Shown in pieces: positions 3,571 to 12,517 of a stretch of DNA of 27,810 nt. The position numbers and the translations under genes were made by a program. The DNA is from a virus: positions 22,485 through 50,294 of IMG/VR virus record IMGVR_UViG_3300030101_002344; one strand, 5' to 3'. How positions within the stretch are numbered: position 1 is the first letter of the stretch; every line of letters starts with the position of its first letter. The notes under the pieces are model-generated. The model searched no databases and was not told the DNA's origin. It worked only from the letters and a program-made list of their open reading frames with translations.

Positions 3571-4026
3571 ATGGCTTTAATAGTTAACGATAGAGTTAAA
3601 GAAACAAGTACAACTACTGGAACAGGAACTTTGAATCTTGCAGGAGCGGAGCAAGGTTACGAAACATTTGTTTCAGGAATTGGAACTACAAATACAACTT
3701 TCTATGCAATAGAAAATAATTCTGCAGGAGAGTTTGAGGTAGGTATTGGTACAGTTACTGATGCTTCACCGGATACTTTATCAAGAGACACAGTTATCTC
3801 ATCATCAAATAGTGATAGCAAAGTAGATTTTGGAGCAGGTACCAAAAATGTATTTTGTACACTACCAGCATCGAGAGCTATGTCACCATCTATGACAGCT
3901 ACAGATTATTTAGTTACACATGCTACAACTCTTTCACAAGATCAAACAATTGCATCTGGAGTATTAGCAGGACCAGTTACAGTAACTGGAACACAAACTA
4001 TAACAGGAACGGTAGTAGTAATTTAA
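3571..4026 (+). CDS. Putative tail-fibre-associated structural protein
   Basis: This 151-aa protein has a GGAG site before the ATG. The N-terminal 100 residues contain 'MALIVNDRVKETSTTTGTG', 'LAGAEQGYETF' and 'VGIGTVTDASPDTLSRDTV', a pattern common in tail or fibre proteins of marine phages. The last 40 residues are a repetitive Thr/Val stretch ('GPVTVTGTQTITGTVVVI') that looks like beta-helix or triple-stranded fibre shaft. It overlaps the first glycine-rich fibre gene by TAATG, so the two may be co-translated. A collar or attachment component for the fibres is a reasonable guess. Confidence 0.55.
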   Translation: MALIVNDRVKETSTTTGTGTLNLAGAEQGYETFVSGIGTTNTTFYAIENNSAGEFEVGIGTVTDASPDTLSRDTVISSSNSDSKVDFGAGTKNVFCTLPASRAMSPSMTATDYLVTHATTLSQDQTIASGVLAGPVTVTGTQTITGTVVVI

Positions 4027-5492
4027 TGAGTAAGATAGAAGTAGATCAGATAACACAACAATCAGGTTCAACTTTAACAGTTGGTGGTGGGGCTTGTAAA
4101 ACTGCAACTGTAGATGCAACAACTGTAACTATAGGTAGATCAGGAGGTACAGTTTCACTAGCTAGTGGAGCTACTCAATCAGGTTTTGGTAGATCAGGGT
4201 CTGTTGATTGGCAAACAGGAAGTATTAAAACATCTACATTTACAGCATCATCTGGCGAAGGATATTTTATAGATACATCTAGTGGAACTGTGACTGCAAA
4301 TTTACCAGCAGGCTCTGCTGGAGCAATAGTTTCTTTTGCTGATTATACAAGAACTTTTCAAACGAATAAATTAACAATAACACCTAATGGTTCAGAAAAA
4401 ATAGGTGGTGTTGCTGCAAGTGCATTTTTAACTGTAAATGGTCAAGCAGCAACTTTTGTTTATGTAGATGGAACAGAGGGATGGATTAACGTTCAAAACG
4501 CTGAAGATACAGAAGAGGGTACAACACCTGCTTTTGTTGCAGCAACGGGTGGAACAGTTACAACTGTTTGCACAAATTTTAAAGTTCACACATTTACAAG
4601 TCCCGGCACTTTTACGGTAACTAATGCAGGAAATTCTGCTGGATCTAATAAATTAGATTATTTAGTGGTAGCTGGAGGTGGCGCTGGTGGTGGAGCTAAT
4701 GGTGGCGGTGGTGGAGGTGGTGCAGGAGGATTTAGATTTTCAAATTGTACATCTATGCCCGCACCTCAAAGTTCTCCATTAGCAGCACCAATAGCTATAA
4801 CAGCATCAGCTACAGCTTTTCCAATTACAGTTGGAGGAGGTGGTAGTCCTGGAACAGGTAATGCACCTCCTGTAGCAGGATTTCAAGGTGGTGATGGAAG
4901 TAATTCAATATTTGCTACAATAACGTCTACTGGTGGCGGTGGAGGTGGTGGAGCTAATCCAAATGGAACATCTGCAGGAAGACCTGGTGGATCAGGTGGT
5001 GGTGAAGGTGGAATGAGTGCTACTGGTGGACCAGGATCAGGTAATACCCCTGCTACTTTTCCTCCTCAAGGTAATCCAGGAGGAGACACTAATCCAGCAA
5101 TTGAAACTAACCAAGGTTCTGGCGGAGGTGGAGCTGCTTGCGCAGGGTCAGGTAATGGTCCAAGTCCCGCTACAAAAGCTGGTCCTGGTGGAGCTGGTAG
5201 TTTTGTAGTTCAAACAGGTTTTGCTGGTTGTAATGGAACACCAGGTCCTGTTTCAGGTGCTAGATATTTTTCTGGTGGTGGAGGAGGTCAAGCAGAAAGT
5301 CAAGCTAGTCCATCTTGTCAAGGAACAGGTGGAGCAGGTGGTGGTGGAGCAGCTGCAACTAGTGGATCAAGTGCTACATCCGGTGGAACAAATACTGGTG
5401 GTGGCGGTGGAGGAATAGATAGTAGTCCATCTGGACAAACTTCTGGAGCAGGTGGGTCTGGTATAGTAATAATAAGGTATAAATTTCAATAA
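4026..5492 (+). CDS. Glycine-rich tail fibre/adhesin, copy 1
   Basis: A 488-aa protein. The ATG at 4026 (TAATG overlap with the previous stop) is preferred over an upstream in-frame ATG at 3855, because it aligns with the N-termini of both paralogues. Order: an N-terminal attachment-like segment (1-65), a beta-domain (about 70-155, with 'ANLPAGSAGAIVSF', 'LTITPNGSEKI' and a closing 'GW'), and a linker with 'TNFKVHTFTSPGTF'. A glycine-rich domain then runs from about 210 to 488. It starts with 'YLVVAGGG', contains 'FPITVGGGG' and 'IFATIT', and ends 'GGSGIVIIRYKFQ'. Glycine-rich domains with variable loops occur at tips of phage receptor-binding adhesins. Unlike copy 2, the loops contain Cys. 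First of three tandem paralogues. Confidence 0.7.
   Translation: MSKIEVDQITQQSGSTLTVGGGACKTATVDATTVTIGRSGGTVSLASGATQSGFGRSGSVDWQTGSIKTSTFTASSGEGYFIDTSSGTVTANLPAGSAGAIVSFADYTRTFQTNKLTITPNGSEKIGGVAASAFLTVNGQAATFVYVDGTEGWINVQNAEDTEEGTTPAFVAATGGTVTTVCTNFKVHTFTSPGTFTVTNAGNSAGSNKLDYLVVAGGGAGGGANGGGGGGGAGGFRFSNCTSMPAPQSSPLAAPIAITASATAFPITVGGGGSPGTGNAPPVAGFQGGDGSNSIFATITSTGGGGGGGANPNGTSAGRPGGSGGGEGGMSATGGPGSGNTPATFPPQGNPGGDTNPAIETNQGSGGGGAACAGSGNGPSPATKAGPGGAGSFVVQTGFAGCNGTPGPVSGARYFSGGGGGQAESQASPSCQGTGGAGGGGAAATSGSSATSGGTNTGGGGGGIDSSPSGQTSGAGGSGIVIIRYKFQ
5460..5491 (+). repeat. Direct repeat A (3' end of fibre gene copy 1)
   Basis: These 32 bases, encoding the C-terminal 'GIVIIRYKFQ' and the start of the stop codon, match 6836-6867 at the end of the second fibre gene at 31 of 32 positions. 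The only difference is A at 5469 against G at 6845. The third fibre gene ends with the same protein motif but diverged codons. Such a match could support recombination between fibre genes. Confidence 0.8.
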
Positions 5493-5494
5493 TT

Positions 5495-6868
5495 ATGACA
5501 AGTACAATTAAAGTAAATACAATACAAAATACATGTGGAGCAGACATCATAAAAGAGTCTGGAAACACAATAACTATCGGTGCAAGTGGCGATACAGTAA
5601 CTTTAGGATCAGGCGCATCGCAAACAGGTTTTGGAAGAACTGGAACTGTTGATTGGCAGACAGGATCAATTAAAACAGCCACATTTACAGCAGCAAATGG
5701 TGAAGGATATTTTTGTAATACAACATCTGGTGGTTTTACAGTAAACTTGCCAGCAGGATCTGCTGGAGCTATTGTATCAGTTCAAGATTATAACAACACT
5801 TTTGACTCAAACGCTCTAACAATTGCACCAAATGGTTCAGAAAAAATCAATGGTGGAGATGGTGGAGGAGTAGTAGCTTTATCCACAGAAGGCGAAGGTT
5901 TAACTTTAGTTTATATTGATTCAACAGTAGGTTGGAGATCAATACAAGATTCAGATTTTGCGGCTTCAGGTTCATCAAACATAGTAGCATCAGGTGGAAC
6001 AGTAACAACTTGTGGTGATTGCAAAATTCATACTTTTACAAGCCCTGGAACTTTTTCAGTATCGGCTGCATCAGCAACTGCTGCTGAAAATATAGTATCT
6101 TATTTAGTAATAGCTGGCGGCGGTGGTTCAGCTGAAGATAATGGTGGCGGAGGTGGAGCAGGAGGATATAGAGAATTAAAAAGTCCTATAACTCCATACA
6201 CAGCAAGTCCTTTAGATGGTTATCCATCTGCACCACTTCGAGTAACAGTAACAGCACAAGATTATCCAATTACAGTTGGTGCTGGGGGAGCAGGATCTCC
6301 AAACCCTGGAGGAGCAAACGCAGGTTTACCAGGATCTAATTCAATTTTTTCAACAATAACGTCTGCTGGCGGTGGCGGAGGTGGCGGTGATGATAACGCT
6401 GACGCTAGTAATGGTGGTTCCGGTGGTGGCGGAGGTGGTCGTGGAGGTTCAAATCCTCCAGGTAAAGGATCTGGTAACACACCTCCAGTATCACCACCTC
6501 AAGGAAATGACGGAGGTAATGGTGGAACTTCTCCAGCACCAGGTGCTGGTGGAGGCGGAGGAGCAGGTGGAGCTGGCTCTGCAACACCTTCTGCACCTAA
6601 CGGAGGTGCTGGCGGAACTGGTGCAACAACTGGAATTACAGGATCAAATGTCACGAGAGCTGGTGGTGGCGGTGGAGGATCAGGACAAGGTGGAGGATCC
6701 GGAGGAGCTGGAGGATCAGGCGGTGGTGGAGCTGGTTCAGCAAGCAACACTGCTGGAGTCTCTGGAACAGCTAACACTGGTGGCGGTGGCGGTGGTGGAG
6801 GCCAAGCTGGTGGTAGTGGTGGAAGCGGTGGTTCAGGTATAGTAGTAATAAGGTATAAATTTCAATAG
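5495..6868 (+). CDS. Glycine-rich tail fibre/adhesin, copy 2
   Basis: This 457-aa paralogue of the 4026 gene starts two bases after the previous stop. It has the same domain order: N-terminal segment 1-65, beta-domain about 70-155 ('VNLPAGSAGAIVSVQDY', 'LTIAPNGSEKI'), a linker with two cysteines ('TTCGDCKIHTF'), then a glycine-rich domain. The glycine-rich part begins 'YLVIAGGGG', contains 'YPITVGAGG' and ends 'GGSGIVVIRYKFQ'. This is the most Gly-rich of the three, with many GGT/GGA/GGC runs, and its tip region has no cysteine. Loops between glycine blocks (for example 'ELKSPITPYTASPLDGY') differ from the paralogues, as expected of receptor-contact surfaces. Role inferred from architecture and location. 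Confidence 0.7.
   Translation: MTSTIKVNTIQNTCGADIIKESGNTITIGASGDTVTLGSGASQTGFGRTGTVDWQTGSIKTATFTAANGEGYFCNTTSGGFTVNLPAGSAGAIVSVQDYNNTFDSNALTIAPNGSEKINGGDGGGVVALSTEGEGLTLVYIDSTVGWRSIQDSDFAASGSSNIVASGGTVTTCGDCKIHTFTSPGTFSVSAASATAAENIVSYLVIAGGGGSAEDNGGGGGAGGYRELKSPITPYTASPLDGYPSAPLRVTVTAQDYPITVGAGGAGSPNPGGANAGLPGSNSIFSTITSAGGGGGGGDDNADASNGGSGGGGGGRGGSNPPGKGSGNTPPVSPPQGNDGGNGGTSPAPGAGGGGGAGGAGSATPSAPNGGAGGTGATTGITGSNVTRAGGGGGGSGQGGGSGGAGGSGGGGAGSASNTAGVSGTANTGGGGGGGGQAGGSGGSGGSGIVVIRYKFQ
6836..6867 (+). repeat. Direct repeat A (3' end of fibre gene copy 2)
   Basis: Second copy of the 32-base repeat at 5460-5491, differing at one base. It ends inside a TAG stop, whereas copy 1 runs into TAA. Confidence 0.8.
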
Positions 6869-6875
6869 GTAAATT

Positions 6876-8285
6876 ATGAGTGAAGTAAAAGTAAATAAAA
6901 TTAGTCCAAGAACAAATTGTGGTACAGTTCAGTTAGGAGATAGTGGTGACACCATTACAATTCCTGCTGGTGCATCAATTACAAACTCTGGTACTGCATC
7001 AGGTTTTGGTGCAACAGGTGCTGCGTCTTGGAATACAACAGTTAAGACAGGAGATTTTACAGCGGTTGCTGGCGAAGGATATTTCGTAAATACAACTTCA
7101 GGAGCTGTTAATGTAACACTTCCTGCAGGAAGTGCAGGAGCTGTTGTTGCAATAAAAGATTATGCAAATACTTTTGATACAAATAATGTTACATTAACTA
7201 GAAATGGGTCAGATAAAATTGGTGGTCAGGCTGTTAATGCAACTTTATCAACAGAAGGTATGGCAGTTACATTAGTTTTTGTAGATTCAACACAAGGTTG
7301 GTTAGTAACAGATGATGGTTTACAATCAATTGCACCTACATCTAAATATGTAGTAGCTACAGGTGGAACAATAACTTGTTGTGGAGATTTTAAAATTCAC
7401 ACATTTACAGGTCCAGGTACTTTTGAAGTTACTTGTGCAGGTAATTCTACTGGAAATAATGAATTAGAATATATAGTAGTAGCAGGTGGAGGACAAGGTG
7501 GAGTAAACAGAAGAGGTGGCGGTGGAGCAGGTGGTTTTAGATTTGCTTCTCCAAGTTTAGCTCCTGCGACTTATCCAGGCAAACCTTTAGCGGCTCCTGC
7601 TGCTATTACAGCATCAGTGGCTAGTTTTCCAATTACAGTTGGAGGGGGTGCAGCTCAACGACCTCACCCTAATCCAACACCACCTACAGGATTTGGATTA
7701 TCAGGTTCTCCTTCAACTTTTTCAACAATAACATCTGCTGGTGGTGGAGGTGGATCTTGTTCATCTTCTTCTGCTAATTTAGTTGGTGGACCAGGAGGTT
7801 CAGGTGGCGGTGGATATGGTGCTCCACCAGATGGTGGAACTCCTACTCTTGCGGGTGGTACAGGAAATACTCCTCCAGTTAGTCCAGCTCAAGGTAGAGA
7901 TGGTGGTGATGGCGGAGCTTCAGCTCAAACTTCAGGTGGTGGAGGTGGCGGAGCAATTAATGAGGGAGAAGATTCAGCATCTTCAGGTGGAACTTCTGCA
8001 TTAGGTGGAGATGGAGCTGGAGTACCAACTGCTTTTGGTAGTAATGGTGTTCCCTGTGGTTCATTTAGATATTATGCTGGAGGCGGTGCAGGTGGTTCAG
8101 GTTGTAGTCCTGCTGGACCAAGAGCAGGTGGAAAAGGTGGTGGGGGAAATGGTGGATTTCCAGGATCTAACGCAACTGCTGGAGCTACAAATAGTGGTGG
8201 CGGAGGTGGAGCTGGAGGTCAATCTGGTTTTGGTGCTGCTGGTGGTTCAGGAGTTGTTATTATTAGATACAAATTTCAAAATTAA
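6876..8285 (+). CDS. Glycine-rich tail fibre/adhesin, copy 3
   Basis: This 469-aa third paralogue starts 7 bases after the previous stop. Its domains match copies 1 and 2: N-terminal segment, beta-domain ('VNVTLPAGSAGAVVAIKDY', 'LTRNGSDKIGG', 'LVFVDSTQGW'), linker 'ITCCGDFKIHTFTGPGTF', and a glycine-rich domain. The last starts 'YIVVAGGGQGG', contains 'FPITVGGGA' and ends 'GGSGVVIIRYKFQN'. Its tip loops contain cysteines ('GGGGSCSSSSANL', 'VPCGSFRYYAGG') and aromatic clusters absent in copy 2. It is the most diverged at the DNA level. A long run of shifted frames stays open only because of GGN codons, and those are not genes. Likely host-recognition adhesin. Confidence 0.7.
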   Translation: MSEVKVNKISPRTNCGTVQLGDSGDTITIPAGASITNSGTASGFGATGAASWNTTVKTGDFTAVAGEGYFVNTTSGAVNVTLPAGSAGAVVAIKDYANTFDTNNVTLTRNGSDKIGGQAVNATLSTEGMAVTLVFVDSTQGWLVTDDGLQSIAPTSKYVVATGGTITCCGDFKIHTFTGPGTFEVTCAGNSTGNNELEYIVVAGGGQGGVNRRGGGGAGGFRFASPSLAPATYPGKPLAAPAAITASVASFPITVGGGAAQRPHPNPTPPTGFGLSGSPSTFSTITSAGGGGGSCSSSSANLVGGPGGSGGGGYGAPPDGGTPTLAGGTGNTPPVSPAQGRDGGDGGASAQTSGGGGGGAINEGEDSASSGGTSALGGDGAGVPTAFGSNGVPCGSFRYYAGGGAGGSGCSPAGPRAGGKGGGGNGGFPGSNATAGATNSGGGGGAGGQSGFGAAGGSGVVIIRYKFQN

Positions 8286-8330: not shown

Positions 8331-8786
8331 ATGGCACATTTTGCAAAACTAGGAGCTAACGGTAAAGTTATTCAAGTATTAACACTTGATGACAAGGACA
8401 TGAAAAATGCCGATGGTGTTGAGGATGAATCAGTAGGTCAACAATATTTAGAAACACATAACAATTGGCCTGCACAAATGTGGATTCAAACTTCATACAA
8501 TACAGCTAGTAATAAACATAAATCAGGTGACGACTCAAAAGCATTTAGAGGTAACTACGCAGGTATAGGTTATACTTGGGACGAAGATAATCAAATTTTT
8601 TGGCCTAAAAAACCATATGCATCTTGGGTAAAAAATACCGCAAATGCATCTTGGCAATCACCTATTGGTGATGCTCCAGAATTGACTGAAGAACAAACTT
8701 TACAAAATGAAGCTATGACACACGCTTGGTATTATAGTTGGAATGAAGCTAATCAATCTTGGGACTTGACAGACGGTAACGCATAA
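8331..8786 (+). CDS. Conserved marine-phage protein of unknown function
   Basis: This 151-aa soluble protein is of a type repeated in marine cyanophage and pelagiphage tail regions. It opens 'MAHFAKLGANGKVIQVL' and has 'WIQTSYNT', 'FRGNYAGIGYTWDEDNQIF' and a Trp-rich C-terminus ('YYSWNEANQSWDLTDG'). AAGGAGA at 8318-8324 precedes the ATG by 6 bases, a strong site. An independent start is likely because a 45-base AT-rich gap separates it from the fibre genes. The abundance of Trp, Tyr and Asn and its place after the adhesins suggest a fibre accessory or virion protein. No enzymatic motif is visible and its true role is not known to me. Confidence 0.6.
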   Translation: MAHFAKLGANGKVIQVLTLDDKDMKNADGVEDESVGQQYLETHNNWPAQMWIQTSYNTASNKHKSGDDSKAFRGNYAGIGYTWDEDNQIFWPKKPYASWVKNTANASWQSPIGDAPELTEEQTLQNEAMTHAWYYSWNEANQSWDLTDGNA

Positions 8787-8804: not shown

Positions 8805-9308
8805 ATGCAAAAGAAAGTATTAAGCGAACAAGCATTATATTTTGGTGATGTCGATATGCCTAAAGATTGGGACATTGACCGAGATAAATTATCAGGTGAC
8901 ATCTTACAATCACAAATTAAAAACAAAGAATTTCCATTTTCACGAACTTGGGATATGTTGAATACATATATGCGAGATCATATTGGTCTTGAGTATGGTA
9001 TTAATCTAGTTAACAAAAAAACGTGGGGTGATATTTATAAACCTGCGGAAACTACAATTCCATTATTAAACATTGATCCAGTAGATTTACGTAACTCACC
9101 AGACTTTACATTATTATATGGTGTAAAAGTTAAAAATTGTAATGTTAGAATACATTTTGAAGATAACAGAAGAAAAGGAAGAAGCTGGGATATATCACTT
9201 GAAAATAATATGTTTATAATGTTTCCATCAACTAATATGTATTACATAACTAATAATCAGAAAGACAGTTTGAATTTTATTCAAACCATAACTTATGAAT
9301 ATATCTAA
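8805..9308 (+). CDS. Unknown protein, possibly degenerate oxygenase-like jelly-roll
   Basis: This 167-aa protein heads the oxygenase cassette. Its C-terminal third ('NNMFIMFPSTNMYYITN' followed by 'NFIQTITYEYI') resembles the last strands of 2-oxoglutarate/Fe(II) oxygenases, where 'FPS' precedes the distal iron-binding His. Here no His follows it, and no clear HxD/E pair precedes it. 'IHFEDN' might be a relic. It may be a non-catalytic relative or an unrelated cupin-like protein. About half of its Arg codons are CGN (CGA, CGT), unlike the AGA-dominated neighbours, which hints at a separate origin. The ribosome binding site is weak. It overlaps the next gene by 14 bases. Confidence 0.5.
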   Translation: MQKKVLSEQALYFGDVDMPKDWDIDRDKLSGDILQSQIKNKEFPFSRTWDMLNTYMRDHIGLEYGINLVNKKTWGDIYKPAETTIPLLNIDPVDLRNSPDFTLLYGVKVKNCNVRIHFEDNRRKGRSWDISLENNMFIMFPSTNMYYITNNQKDSLNFIQTITYEYI

Positions 9309-9933
9309 TTACTATTGGTATTTTAGTGGTGTATTAACATCCAGATTTTGTGATGATGTTATAGCCTATGCTAATGAAAAAAAAGAAGTTATGGCAAGAA
9401 CAGGTGGTTATGGTGATAGAAAATTAAACAAACAAGAAGTTAAAGATTTAAAAAGAAAAAGAAATTCTGATTTAGTTTGGTTAAATGATACTTGGATATA
9501 TAAAGAATTACATCCATACGTTCATGAAGCAAATAGGAACGCTGGTTGGAATTTTGACTGGGAAAGAAGTGAATCTTGTCAATTTACAAAATACAAACAT
9601 AATCAATATTATGATTGGCATTGTGATAGTTGGGATAAACCATATCAACGAGATGATGTTAATCATCCAGAGCATGGAAGAATTCGAAAACTATCTATGA
9701 CTTGTCAGCTAACAGATGGTTCAGAATATAAAGGTGGTGAATTAGAATTTGATTTTAGAAACTACGATCCACACATGAGAGATGAAAGTCAACACTTGAG
9801 AAGAGCAAAAGAAATATTACCTAAAGGATCTATTATTGTGTTTCCTTCTTTTGTGTGGCATAGAGTTAAACCAGTAACCGCTGGCACAAGATACAGTCTT
9901 GTTGTCTGGCATCTAGGAAAGCCGTTTAGATAA
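9295..9933 (+). CDS. 2-oxoglutarate/Fe(II) oxygenase, prolyl-4-hydroxylase-like (PKHD type)
   Basis: This 212-aa protein has the full catalytic set of the 2OG-Fe(II) dioxygenase superfamily. The proximal pair His109-x-Asp111 lies in 'YYDWHCDSW', the distal His189 in 'VFPSFVWHRV', and the 2OG-binding Arg199 in 'GTRYSLVVWH'. 'KGGELEFDF' is the strand seen in PKHD/P4H-type hydroxylases. Such enzymes use Fe(II), O2 and 2-oxoglutarate to hydroxylate protein side chains or small substrates, giving succinate and CO2. It starts inside the preceding gene, and its stop overlaps the next ATG (TAATG). Protein hydroxylation is the usual guess for this subfamily, and the fibres upstream are possible substrates. 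Substrate is inference. Confidence 0.8.
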   Translation: MNISNYYWYFSGVLTSRFCDDVIAYANEKKEVMARTGGYGDRKLNKQEVKDLKRKRNSDLVWLNDTWIYKELHPYVHEANRNAGWNFDWERSESCQFTKYKHNQYYDWHCDSWDKPYQRDDVNHPEHGRIRKLSMTCQLTDGSEYKGGELEFDFRNYDPHMRDESQHLRRAKEILPKGSIIVFPSFVWHRVKPVTAGTRYSLVVWHLGKPFR

Positions 9934-10565
9934 TGTATATAAGTAACTATTTTAACACAACCATTTGGTCAGAACAAAAACCAGAGTTTGTAAAATCTTT
10001 AAATAAAGCAAGTAACAAATATATTACTGAATCTCGTAAAAGAGAAAAAGAATTTATAAAAAAACACGGTGATTTTGGAAGATCTTATCACTCAACACCA
10101 TTAACACACGATAATGATTTTTTAGATTTTAGAAATTATATAGGTCAAAAATCTTGGGAGTATTTAGATCACCAAGGTTATGATATGTCACAATATCAAA
10201 CTATGTTTAGTGAGCTATGGGTGCAAGAATTTGCTAAAAAAGGTGGTGGCCATCATTCAGCACATATACATTGGAATCAACACGTATCAGGTTTTTATTT
10301 TTTAAAGTGTAGTGATAAAACATCTTACCCAGTATTTCACGAACCAAGAACCGGGGCACGTGCAACTAAATTAAAAATGAAACCAAATATTAGAGGTATT
10401 TGGGGTGGTAGTGAGCTAATACATTTTAAACCTAAACCAGGTACATTAATTATATTTCCAGGATTCTTAGAACACGAATTTGCAGTAGATTTTGGTAAGG
10501 AACCATTTAGATTCATACATTGGAATATACAAGCTGTACCAAAAGAAATGGCTAAAGATGTTTAA
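9933..10565 (+). CDS. 2OG-Fe(II) oxygenase-like protein, HxH type
   Basis: This 210-aa protein has the signature of the phage/marine bacterial '2OG-Fe(II) oxygenase' group with a His-rich proximal site. The site 'HHSAHIHWNQHVSGFYFLK' has His111 and His113. 'VFHEPR' follows (134-139), then 'PGTLIIFPGFLEHEF' with distal His181 and Arg193 in 'EPFRFIHWN'. The HxH replacing HxD/E is typical of that group. It is clearly a different subfamily from its neighbours, so it did not come from a recent tandem duplication. The basic N-terminal helix region (about 15-48) is extra. Translation is coupled on both sides by overlaps. The substrate is unknown. Confidence 0.7.
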   Translation: MYISNYFNTTIWSEQKPEFVKSLNKASNKYITESRKREKEFIKKHGDFGRSYHSTPLTHDNDFLDFRNYIGQKSWEYLDHQGYDMSQYQTMFSELWVQEFAKKGGGHHSAHIHWNQHVSGFYFLKCSDKTSYPVFHEPRTGARATKLKMKPNIRGIWGGSELIHFKPKPGTLIIFPGFLEHEFAVDFGKEPFRFIHWNIQAVPKEMAKDV

Positions 10566-11076
10566 AGATTTTATGTTAGTTAAAGATAAAATTTTTTCTA
10601 AAGAAGAATGTAAAGATATGATTAATAAATATAGTAAAAAATGTGTTAAAGGTGAAAAATCACATTTAGGTTATTATTTTTATGATGTTGAAACATTTGG
10701 ATATATTAATAAACTTCGTCCCGTTGTAGAAGAATATAAAGATAAATTTAAAGGAATACAACTAACTGCTTCAAAATGGAAATTAGATTACTTTAGGTTT
10801 AAACATTTTAAACCAGGAAAAAATTTTGATCTTTGGCATTCTGAACATTCTATGTCTCATTGCACTAGGGTGTTAAATGTGCAAATGTATTTAAGTAATC
10901 ATAATTGTGGTACACAATTTTTAGATTATAAAACTATTAAAAGTGTTGTTGGGAGAGTGGCTATATTTCCGTGTTACTTTACACATACACATAAAGGACA
11001 AGTTTGTCCTGAAAATAAAGATAGGTATTTAATTACATCTTATATAAACTTTTATGATAAAGGACCACTAGAATGA
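10558..11076 (+). CDS. 2OG-Fe(II) oxygenase, HxE type
   Basis: A 172-aa protein from the ATG at 10558. An upstream in-frame ATG at 10492 lies deep inside the previous gene and would add a non-homologous tail, whereas 10558 gives the usual 8-base overlap. His94-Ser-Glu96 ('FDLWHSEHS') is the proximal iron pair, His143 in 'IFPCYFTHTHKG' the distal ligand, and Arg156 ('KDRYLITSYINF') the probable 2OG salt-bridge residue. 'YRF..F.PG..F..WHSE' is characteristic of 2OG oxygenases found in marine myoviruses and cyanophages. It is very AT-rich. Its stop overlaps the next ATG (ATGA). Confidence 0.75.
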   Translation: MFKDFMLVKDKIFSKEECKDMINKYSKKCVKGEKSHLGYYFYDVETFGYINKLRPVVEEYKDKFKGIQLTASKWKLDYFRFKHFKPGKNFDLWHSEHSMSHCTRVLNVQMYLSNHNCGTQFLDYKTIKSVVGRVAIFPCYFTHTHKGQVCPENKDRYLITSYINFYDKGPLE

Positions 11077-11732
11077 GTTTTAAAAAGAAAAAGTATACAA
11101 TCATTCGTCAAGCAATATCAAAAGACCTAGCAGCTTTTATTGCTAATTATTTTATAATGCAAAAACAAGTTTATGATACTTGTAAAGCATCAAGATACTT
11201 TTCACCTTTTGAAACTATACTTGGATACTACGAAGGTAAAGATGAACAGATTCCAAATACTTATTCTCAATACGCTAATATGGCTATGGAAACTTTATTG
11301 CTTAAATGTCAACCAGGTATGGAAAAAGCAACAGGATTAAAATTATATCCTGCTTATACTTATGCAAGAATTTATAAAAAAGGTGATGAATTAAAAAGAC
11401 ATAAAGATAGATTTAGTTGTGAGATATCTACTACGATGAATCTTGGCGGAGATGATTGGCCTATATATTTAAGCCCAAATGAAAATGTAGGTGCACCAGA
11501 TGGTAAAAATATTACTGCAGCTAGCAAAGCAAGAGGTGTTAGGGTAGACTTAAAACCTGGAGATATGTTGGTTTATAGGGGTGTTGAGCTAGAACATTGG
11601 AGAGAAAAATTCAAAGGTAAAGAATGCGTACAAGTTTTTCTGCATTATAACAATCGTAAGACCCCAGGAGCGAAGGATAATATGTTTGACAAACGTCCAC
11701 ATTTAGGTCTTCCTTCTTGGTTTAAACGATGA
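11073..11732 (+). CDS. 2OG-Fe(II) oxygenase-like protein, last of cassette
   Basis: This 219-aa protein starts on ATGA, with AAGGA upstream as ribosome binding site. The proximal pair His110-x-Asp112 is in 'ELKRHKDRFSCEISTTMNLG'. The distal His175 is in 'YRGVELEHWRE'. The C-terminal strand reads 'CVQVFLHYNN', where Gln187 stands near the place of the usual Arg. That places it in the HWRe...QVFlHY subgroup, which marine phages and marine bacteria carry. N-terminal helices (10-90) form a typical support domain. The basic C-terminal tail ('DKRPHLGLPSWFKR') is distinctive. A putative terminator begins 14 bases downstream, so this closes the transcription unit. Substrate unknown. Confidence 0.75.
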   Translation: MSFKKKKYTIIRQAISKDLAAFIANYFIMQKQVYDTCKASRYFSPFETILGYYEGKDEQIPNTYSQYANMAMETLLLKCQPGMEKATGLKLYPAYTYARIYKKGDELKRHKDRFSCEISTTMNLGGDDWPIYLSPNENVGAPDGKNITAASKARGVRVDLKPGDMLVYRGVELEHWREKFKGKECVQVFLHYNNRKTPGAKDNMFDKRPHLGLPSWFKR

Positions 11733-11746
11733 TATAATTCTTAGAT

Positions 11747-11786
11747 GGGGGCTGTGTCACCACCACATACCACGCAGCCTCCTTTT
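11747..11786 (+). terminator. Putative rho-independent terminator after oxygenase cassette
   Basis: GGGGGCTGTG (11747-11756) can pair with CGCAGCCTCC (11773-11782) over 10 positions, including two G-U pairs, around a 16-base loop. TTTT follows at 11783-11786. The T-tract is short and the loop long, so strength is uncertain. It is the only GC-rich segment in this gap and separates the oxygenases from the repeat-protein genes. AAGG at 11787-11790 then serves the next ATG. Confidence 0.6.
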
Positions 11787-11800
11787 AAGGATTATATATT

Positions 11801-12517
11801 ATGTTTTTTGGCGGAACTACCTTTGCAGGAGCACCCTTTGGAGATTCAGGATTTAACCCTAATGCATTTGTAAATGTAACCGGGTCTAGAATAAACGAAT
11901 CAACAGGCACAGTAGGTTTAGTAGGTAAAGCAAATATTTCTGTTACCGGTAATAGACTTAATTTTACAATTGGTAATGTAACTATTATTGAAGGTACAGG
12001 TGTTATTGTATCTCCTGATGGTAGCCGTATAAATGTATCTAGTGGCGATCCAACTATTGTTGCAAAAGCTGTAACAGCTTTAACTGGGTCAAGAGTAAAT
12101 TTAAATACAGGCACACCTACATTTGCATTTAAGTATCCTGTAACAGGATCTAGAGTAAATACAAATACAGGAAATGTTACAACAGTTGGTAAAGCAACTG
12201 TATTACCAAATGGGTCTAGAGTCGATGTCAGCACTGGATCTGTAACAATTACAGCTGATGCAAATCTTTCAGTAACAGGAAACAGAGTTGATGTAGCTGT
12301 AGGAAACGTTACAACTAAAGCAAATGCAACTGTAACAGTTACAACAAACAGACAAAATTTATCAACAGGAACCGTAACAATTGTAGCAAAAGCAACAGTT
12401 ACTCCAGATGGTAGTAGAATAAATATGGCAGATGGTTCTGTATTAATTAAAAAATGGGATGGTATTGTACCAGGTGCTACTATGACTTGGGAACCAGTAC
12501 AAACATCTTTAGGATAG
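11801..12517 (+). CDS. Solenoid-like repeat virion protein, long form (9 repeats)
   Basis: A 238-aa protein built from an N-cap ('MFFGGTTFAGAPFGDSG'), about nine imperfect 18-24-residue repeats (residues about 24-219) and a 19-residue C-cap ('IVPGATMTWEP'). The repeat consensus is roughly TGSRVNxxTGxVTxxxKAxV, with one Arg, one central Gly and alternating Val/Thr. It looks like a parallel beta-solenoid or a filamentous fibre shaft. The next gene has both caps but only three repeats. Related short-repeat proteins are common in marine phage tail loci near the nozzle gene. A tail-spike shaft, tail-tube decoration or virion surface protein is likely. No enzymatic motif or signal peptide is seen. 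Confidence 0.65.
   Translation: MFFGGTTFAGAPFGDSGFNPNAFVNVTGSRINESTGTVGLVGKANISVTGNRLNFTIGNVTIIEGTGVIVSPDGSRINVSSGDPTIVAKAVTALTGSRVNLNTGTPTFAFKYPVTGSRVNTNTGNVTTVGKATVLPNGSRVDVSTGSVTITADANLSVTGNRVDVAVGNVTTKANATVTVTTNRQNLSTGTVTIVAKATVTPDGSRINMADGSVLIKKWDGIVPGATMTWEPVQTSLG
11870..12457 (+). repeat. Nine tandem ~22-codon repeats within the long solenoid gene
   Basis: Nine diverged units each start near 'VTGSR' or 'PDGSR' and end near 'KAxV'. Unit length varies from 18 to 24 codons. At DNA level the units are diverged, so the array is old or under selection for protein pattern rather than freshly expanded. Confidence 0.75.

Follow-up and report, generated by a model that had tools for sequence, protein, structure and literature searches.

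Wittmers et al. (2022, PMC9599517) described colocated 2-oxoglutarate (2OG)-Fe(II) oxygenase and "ferrochelatase" auxiliary metabolic genes (AMGs) in pelagiphages of the HTVC023P type. Among T4-like cyanophages, S-SCSM1 has 24 2OG oxygenase genes (PMC9602691) and S-CREM1 has 10 (PMC9964418). In the parts of this earlier work that we draw on, the phage 2OG genes are read as metabolic genes of untested function. As for fibre tips, the distal glycine-rich domain of the Pam3 fibre has been proposed to bind the host (PMC9608196). Viral prolyl 4-hydroxylase is described for Chlorella virus PBCV-1, together with viral hydroxyproline (Eriksson 1999, as cited in PMC9301287), and the Baltic study that cites this work describes this viral enzyme as having a "cryptic" role and brings up viral collagen (PMC9301287). 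Here we analyse a stretch of 27,810 nt (the window), positions 22,485-50,294 of the 50,294-base virus record IMGVR_UViG_3300030101_002344, and in it a cassette of genes B to F that comes after three Gly-rich fibre genes (G1-G3) and a small gene A (Table 1).

By the DNA and gene order that it has in common with isolates, the window is an HTVC023P-type pelagiphage. The cassette DNA is 84% identical to 023Pt_psg01 and 83% to isolate HTVC023P, with identical gene order. On balance we favour the view that the phage uses the cassette to mature its own receptor-binding fibres, with C and F hydroxylating prolines of the tip. The substrate, the residue, the chemistry and the benefit to the phage are here what we infer. 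A tip-modification system is the simplest reading of the kinship with prolyl hydroxylases, the late structural location and the presence of Pro-rich fibres only beside the enzymes. Hydroxylation of the phage's own fibres had been proposed in a preliminary description of this DNA; it is the best-supported reading, now sharpened to proline, and has strong indirect support from synteny conserved in both directions and from a composition signal specific to proline.

In the proposed mechanism, G1-G3 would be produced alongside A and at least two 2OG-Fe(II) oxygenases. The shared core, C and F, would hold Fe(II) by HxD...H, consume O2 and 2-oxoglutarate and hydroxylate prolines in Pro-rich segments of the Gly-rich tip, such as GNTPPVSPPQG. 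This step would happen late, and exposed loops in contact with the host would be stiffened or retuned by their hydroxyprolines. D and E would probably modify other sites, and B may assist without catalysing a reaction itself.

The cassette consists of four plausible enzymes (C, D, E and F) and one probable non-enzyme (B). The preliminary description had placed iron-binding sites at 9295, 9933, 10558 and 11073; the motifs are confirmed, and these positions are the gene starts. It had given 8805-11732 as the span of the four oxygenases, which are C, D, E and F; the gene at 8805 (B) is a degenerate fifth member that has lost its ligands. Profiles place C in PF13640 and D in PF13759, both above the Pfam cut-off, and E weakly in PF13640 (0.0016, under its cut-off), while F was placed by structure.

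Gene C has the ligand residues H109-x-D111, H189 and R199, and the metal ligands and R199 show no variation in an alignment of 32 relatives. The C family profile matches PiuC/PKHD (1e-11) and the prolyl 4-hydroxylases 5c5t (1.6e-5) and 2jig (0.0028), and NCBIfam PKHD models match gene C, each under its own cut-off. The Protein Data Bank (PDB) entry 5c5t, "Prolyl 4-hydroxylase", is presumably the PBCV-1 enzyme. In sequence, C is akin to characterised prolyl 4-hydroxylase and PKHD members, and it may itself hydroxylate prolines.

Gene F has H110-x-D112 and H175, invariant across 39 relatives, as are R177 and H191. HHalign gave no convincing link between F and C, so the identity of F was settled through structure. 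The top Foldseek match of its AlphaFold 2 (AF2) model is the P. putida prolyl-4-hydroxylase 4iw3 (1.4e-8), and the model has Z scores of about 15 to PHD2, P4H, SnoN and BesD-type enzymes. The predicted fold of F is a prolyl-hydroxylase-like double-stranded beta-helix (DSBH) oxygenase fold. The public label "ferrochelatase" was rejected for F, since the Pfam search gave no match up to E=1, ferrochelatase model included, and the fold is DSBH.

As for the remaining genes, D has H111-x-H113, H181 and R193, and its HxH...H motif departs from the canonical HxD/E...H triad. It matches TIGR02466 (1.1e-14, under cut-off) and PDB 3bvc (0.0016). Gene E has H94-x-E96, a distal His at 143 or 145, and R156. 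A 2OG-binding Arg or Lys is expected about 10-12 residues beyond the distal His; in this position R199 is invariant in C, and R193 in D and R156 in E are present. Gene B, aligned with 29 relatives, has lost both metal-ligand stretches, which read FEDNRR and FPSTNMYY; it is akin to the D family but degenerate, with kinship of fold only.

The four oxygenases of the window are barely alike in BLASTP, which makes the earlier view that they were gathered and not duplicated a reasonable one, but under iterated profiles C, D and E fuse into one superfamily and only F stays out. Two public labels seem mistaken for these families, "ferrochelatase" (phrog_2954, phrog_3531) and "DNA endonuclease V" (phrog_2297); both families join the 2OG oxygenases.

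The association of fibres and oxygenases holds widely, in podophages as well as T4-like phages, on SAR11 and on cyanobacteria. Among about 150 IMG/VR relatives the gene order hardly varies from G-A-B-C-D-(E)-F, with A-B-C-D-F as the conserved core and E as an optional slot found in a minority. In more distant matches the gene sets differ but the plan recurs: the arrangement [Gly]-A-(2OG)n-F is found in T4-like cyanophages (S-SM1, S-RSM4) and in podophages (HTVC033P). In pelagimyophages such as HTVC008M the fibre gene is on the opposite strand to the module, and in Mosig a Gly-rich fibre is present with no A detected. The parts most widely shared are C and F.

A Gly-rich gene is found within 5 kb of the C-family gene in 51/59 testable cases, that is, those with at least 4 kb on either side, and in 24/24 of the C genes at 45% identity or more. 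Starting from Gly-rich queries alone, 155 of the 181 classifiable Gly-rich genes have at least two oxygenases within 3 kb. These sets contain many close relatives, so the counts speak for recurrence and not for independent events. The gap between C and the fibre gene in five phages gives a Fisher p=3e-4. Co-occurrence with Gly-rich fibres recurs in both pelagiphages and cyanophages. The preliminary description had held a four-enzyme cassette beside adhesins to be less usual; the arrangement is common, not rare, a multi-enzyme cassette being the rule in these phages, and the colocation was published in 2022 (PMC9599517). When Gly-rich proteins were used as BLAST queries against the phage collection, nothing beyond the query was returned, an outcome that low-complexity masking would lead one to expect.

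Some loci vary the arrangement. Gly-rich fibre genes are sometimes inserted within the A-to-F module (L397, L398, L446 and HTVC033P, L003). Furthermore, three Pelagibacteraceae assemblies (L530, L557, L558) have the Gly-rich-A-oxygenase module on contigs assigned to SAR11 genomes; this is either a prophage or DNA of a phage that entered the single-cell data.

The composition of the Gly-rich domains provides the second line of evidence. Reading the sequences first showed that the Gly-rich domains of loci with no oxygenase have almost no proline, and all 20 residues were then tested. In dereplicated sets proline gave the strongest difference, with 6.8% beside a cassette vs 1.8% with none (area under the curve, AUC, 0.97). 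In the same table, Asn, Asp, His, Ser and Thr content did not differ with and without the cassette. When only domains with an A neighbour are compared, a set that drew on added cassette-free and bacterial loci, the median is 6.8% for cassette (n=51) vs 1.5% for none (n=14), with AUC 0.986 and p=3e-8. Proline is about fourfold more abundant in tips on the cassette side than in tips of this type without the enzymes. GC content is no explanation of this excess, as the cassette group has the lower GC in this comparison.

Controls point the same way within proteins, within a genome and between two phages of one host. Within the same proteins, proline makes up 7.3% inside the domain vs 2.7% outside. 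In HTVC023P the cassette fibres gp59-62 have 7-12% proline, and a fifth Gly-rich protein beyond the cassette, gp70, has 1.7%. HTVC025P, which infects the same host strain (HTCC1062), has 1.3% in its fibre, and its whole genome gave no match to PF13640 or phrog_2954 (F), with a positive control. Because a test of independent pairs had too few supported branches, phylogenetic generalised least squares (PGLS) was used besides; on the tree of A it assigns +4.1 points of proline to the cassette (p=1.4e-7, or 0.001 when full Brownian motion is assumed).

G1-G3 exceed the PF21722 cut-off of 24.3 bits with 61, 83 and 36 bits, respectively. In the model of G2, residues 47-155 resemble T4 gp9/gp10 and CBA120 TSP4, and residues 174-457 reach Z 15.0 against the fibre tip of Pam3 and Z 14.8 against the tail tip of Bxb1. 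We infer from these two domains, one for attachment and gp9/gp10-like, the other a Pam3-like tip, that the three proteins belong to the virion, and they are predicted to be fibres with a Pam3-like Gly-rich tip. The adhesins had been described as rich in Gly, Pro, Asn and Asp; Gly and Pro stand, together with Ser and Ala, and Asp is not raised. The prolines of GNTPxxSPPQG (P330 and P334 of G2) are common to 40/40 aligned fibres of this type. In the Gly-rich domains the context of proline differs from the strict X-Pro-Gly pattern of collagen.

Gene A (phrog_7759) comes after Gly-rich fibres in many phages, whether oxygenases are present or not, and possibly serves fibre assembly. It has no sequence match in the PDB, which leaves a chaperone role unproven. 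Where the cassette is present, A tends towards greater length.

The genes of the cassette overlap end to end (B/C by 14 nt, C/D by 1, D/E by 8 and E/F by 4), which fits translational coupling. A hairpin separates F from the next gene and stops just upstream of the start codon at 11801. The terminator that had been suggested at the cassette end is a strong hairpin; it is unlisted in the terminator scan, and having no T run it is not a classical terminator.

Table 1. Fibre genes, partner gene, oxygenase cassette and terminal hairpin, in window coordinates (pLDDT, predicted local distance difference test; the domain proline content of G1 was counted on the frame extended upstream to 3855).
Feature	Coordinates	Strand	Assignment	Evidence and remarks
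G1	4023..5492	+	Predicted Gly-rich tail fibre (PF21722)	Pfam 1.9e-16; GNTPATFPPQG at 5040; domain Pro 5.9%
G2	5495..6868	+	Predicted Gly-rich tail fibre	Pfam 3.3e-23; GNTPPVSPPQG at 6473; AF2 pLDDT 86
G3	6876..8285	+	Predicted Gly-rich tail fibre	Pfam 6.9e-9; GNTPPVSPAQG at 7863; domain Pro 8.5%
A	8331..8786	+	Small partner gene of Gly-rich fibres	phrog_7759, PHROG 1.2e-32
B	8805..9308	+	Degenerate, 2OG-oxygenase-like	HHalign to D family E=2.5e-5, residues 70-159
C	9295..9933	+	Plausible 2OG-Fe(II) oxygenase, PKHD/prolyl-4-hydroxylase-like; core enzyme	PF13640 1e-15
D	9933..10565	+	Plausible 2OG-Fe(II) oxygenase of the PF13759/TIGR02466 kind, HxH...H	PF13759 5.9e-12
E	10558..11076	+	Plausible 2OG-Fe(II) oxygenase, HxE...H; optional	Public label "DNA endonuclease" (phrog_2297)
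F	11073..11732	+	Plausible 2OG-Fe(II) oxygenase; core enzyme	Mislabelled "ferrochelatase" (phrog_2954); AF2 pLDDT 92.8
Hairpin	11731..11799	+	Long, stable hairpin at cassette end	-33.2 kcal/mol over 11720-11805, z -6.6

Several observations weigh against the hydroxylation of tip prolines by C and F. The proline idea arose from four no-oxygenase loci that were kept in the test set, most of the others being fetched afterwards. In the full mixed set, bacterial genomes included, the AUC drops to 0.85, with Gln raised and further residues shifted as well; at least two "none" cases of this set (L509, L516) resemble cassette-type fibres on contigs that do not fully show the cassette. The tree of A is poorly resolved and its fully supported branches carry one independent change only, so the association may reflect shared ancestry. 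Locus L518 has C and F yet 2.3% proline, and low values are also found in L402 (1.2%), L400 (2.9%) and an extra fibre of L446 (1.5%). Proline content does not correlate with the number of oxygenases, and Cys is also enriched in cassette-side domains, at about 1% vs 0.2%. When oxygenases near fibres are counted over whole genomes, the excess above chance is only weak (combined p=0.04), owing to the many 2OG genes of those genomes, and the gap from C to the fibre was taken instead. In gene F, the alignment of 39 relatives has no conserved Arg 10-12 residues after the distal His; the invariant R177 or H191 may stand in for it. Finally, the refuting case named in the preliminary description, cassettes without Gly-rich fibres, occurs in part, in the form of distant clusters with F and without close C, beside tail-collar-type genes.

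These distant clusters, in L309, L328, L335, L337 and HTVC027P (L007), have F in most cases and a close C in none. Other fibre types may therefore be clients of the oxygenases.

We give roughly even chances to the more specific proposal that abundant marine bacteriophages run a collagen-like maturation of their receptor-binding tips. In it, at least two oxygenases that form a mobile module, the core enzyme C plus the new F family, would hydroxylate prolines whose enrichment is limited to the adjoining fibres.

The explanation that survives best after proline hydroxylation keeps the Gly-rich fibre as the substrate and moves the reaction mainly to Asn, Asp, Lys or His, or to other chemistry, with proline as a structural feature of the fibre subtype. 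Several distinct families stand side by side, more than one reaction needs, and the targets of D-type and denV-type enzymes are unassigned. The content of Asn, Asp, His, Ser and Thr is however unchanged by the cassette, and the nearest relatives of C and F, by sequence or fold, include prolyl hydroxylases, so that we hold this explanation to be unlikely.

Less likely still is that a host protein, such as EF-Tu or a ribosomal protein, is hydroxylated during infection and translation is tuned in this way, the fibre genes being neighbours only through a late operon. This idea draws on the best structural match of F, an enzyme solved in complex with EF-Tu. It explains neither why families of several kinds are tied to Gly-rich fibre genes nor the proline signal, and the module sits among late structural genes.

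We rate auxiliary metabolism as equally improbable. In this explanation the targets of the genes would be 2-oxoglutarate levels, small molecules, lipids or the iron and haem chemistry of the host. It is the view of the literature, with a 2OG/nitrogen link and a ferrochelatase partner in the accounts that we cite (PMC9602691, PMC9599517), and haem oxygenase and PcyA-like genes adjoin the cluster in Mosig. The "ferrochelatase" is however a 2OG oxygenase by fold and ligands, the position is late structural, and the signal in fibre composition is left unexplained.

Modification or repair of DNA or nucleobases was dropped as very improbable, since its support lies in public-record labels ("DNA endonuclease V", phrog_2297) whose proteins join 2OG oxygenases in iterated profiles, the psg01 "endonuclease V" being a distant homologue of E, and since sequence matches to AlkB/TET did not reach a useful E-value (F profile vs a Tet-like enzyme, 0.34). 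The host surface proteins and nucleobases named as alternative targets in the preliminary description found no positive support in this analysis.

If the enzymes do mature the phage's own fibres, a function would be supplied for phage 2OG oxygenases, which rank among the commonest marine AMGs. They would be virion-modifying and not metabolic, which would change a whole annotation class, and the labels "ferrochelatase" and "DNA endonuclease V" would also fall. Furthermore, O2, iron and 2-oxoglutarate would become inputs to host attachment.

With regard to known systems, 2OG gene clusters in this group and large cyanophage sets are already published, and the present analysis adds the link between enzymes and fibres and the proline signal. 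We found no link between these oxygenases and Gly-rich fibres in open-access papers. The set of PMC9599517 comes from the same phage group and, going by its description, has the same genes. In the portions consulted, it reads them as AMGs with a haem-enzyme partner and makes no fibre link, whereas here F is predicted to fold as an oxygenase and the genes are tied as a set to Gly/Pro-rich fibres. The cyanophage sets of S-SCSM1 and S-CREM1 draw on the same enzyme families, each phage with many distinct copies; the role proposed in the relevant passages is in host 2-oxoglutarate and nitrogen metabolism, and fibres are not considered there. The P. putida prolyl-4-hydroxylase (4iw3) and the PiuC/PKHD enzymes have the DSBH fold and HxD...H in common with ours, but are cellular, encoded by single genes and act on other substrates (EF-Tu for the 4iw3 enzyme). 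Pam3 gp24 and S16 gp38 are Gly-rich fibre tips, and G2 residues 174-457 are predicted to have the Pam3 gp24 fold (Z 15). In the account of these tips available to us (PMC9608196) oxygenases are not described alongside, and G2 bears extra Pro-rich segments. Finally, the PBCV-1 enzyme offers a likeness in that a viral prolyl hydroxylase is thought to act on viral proteins, in the summary given by PMC9301287. It is a single enzyme of a eukaryotic virus, whereas the present system belongs to bacteriophages, with several enzymes and with Gly-rich tips in place of GXY repeats.

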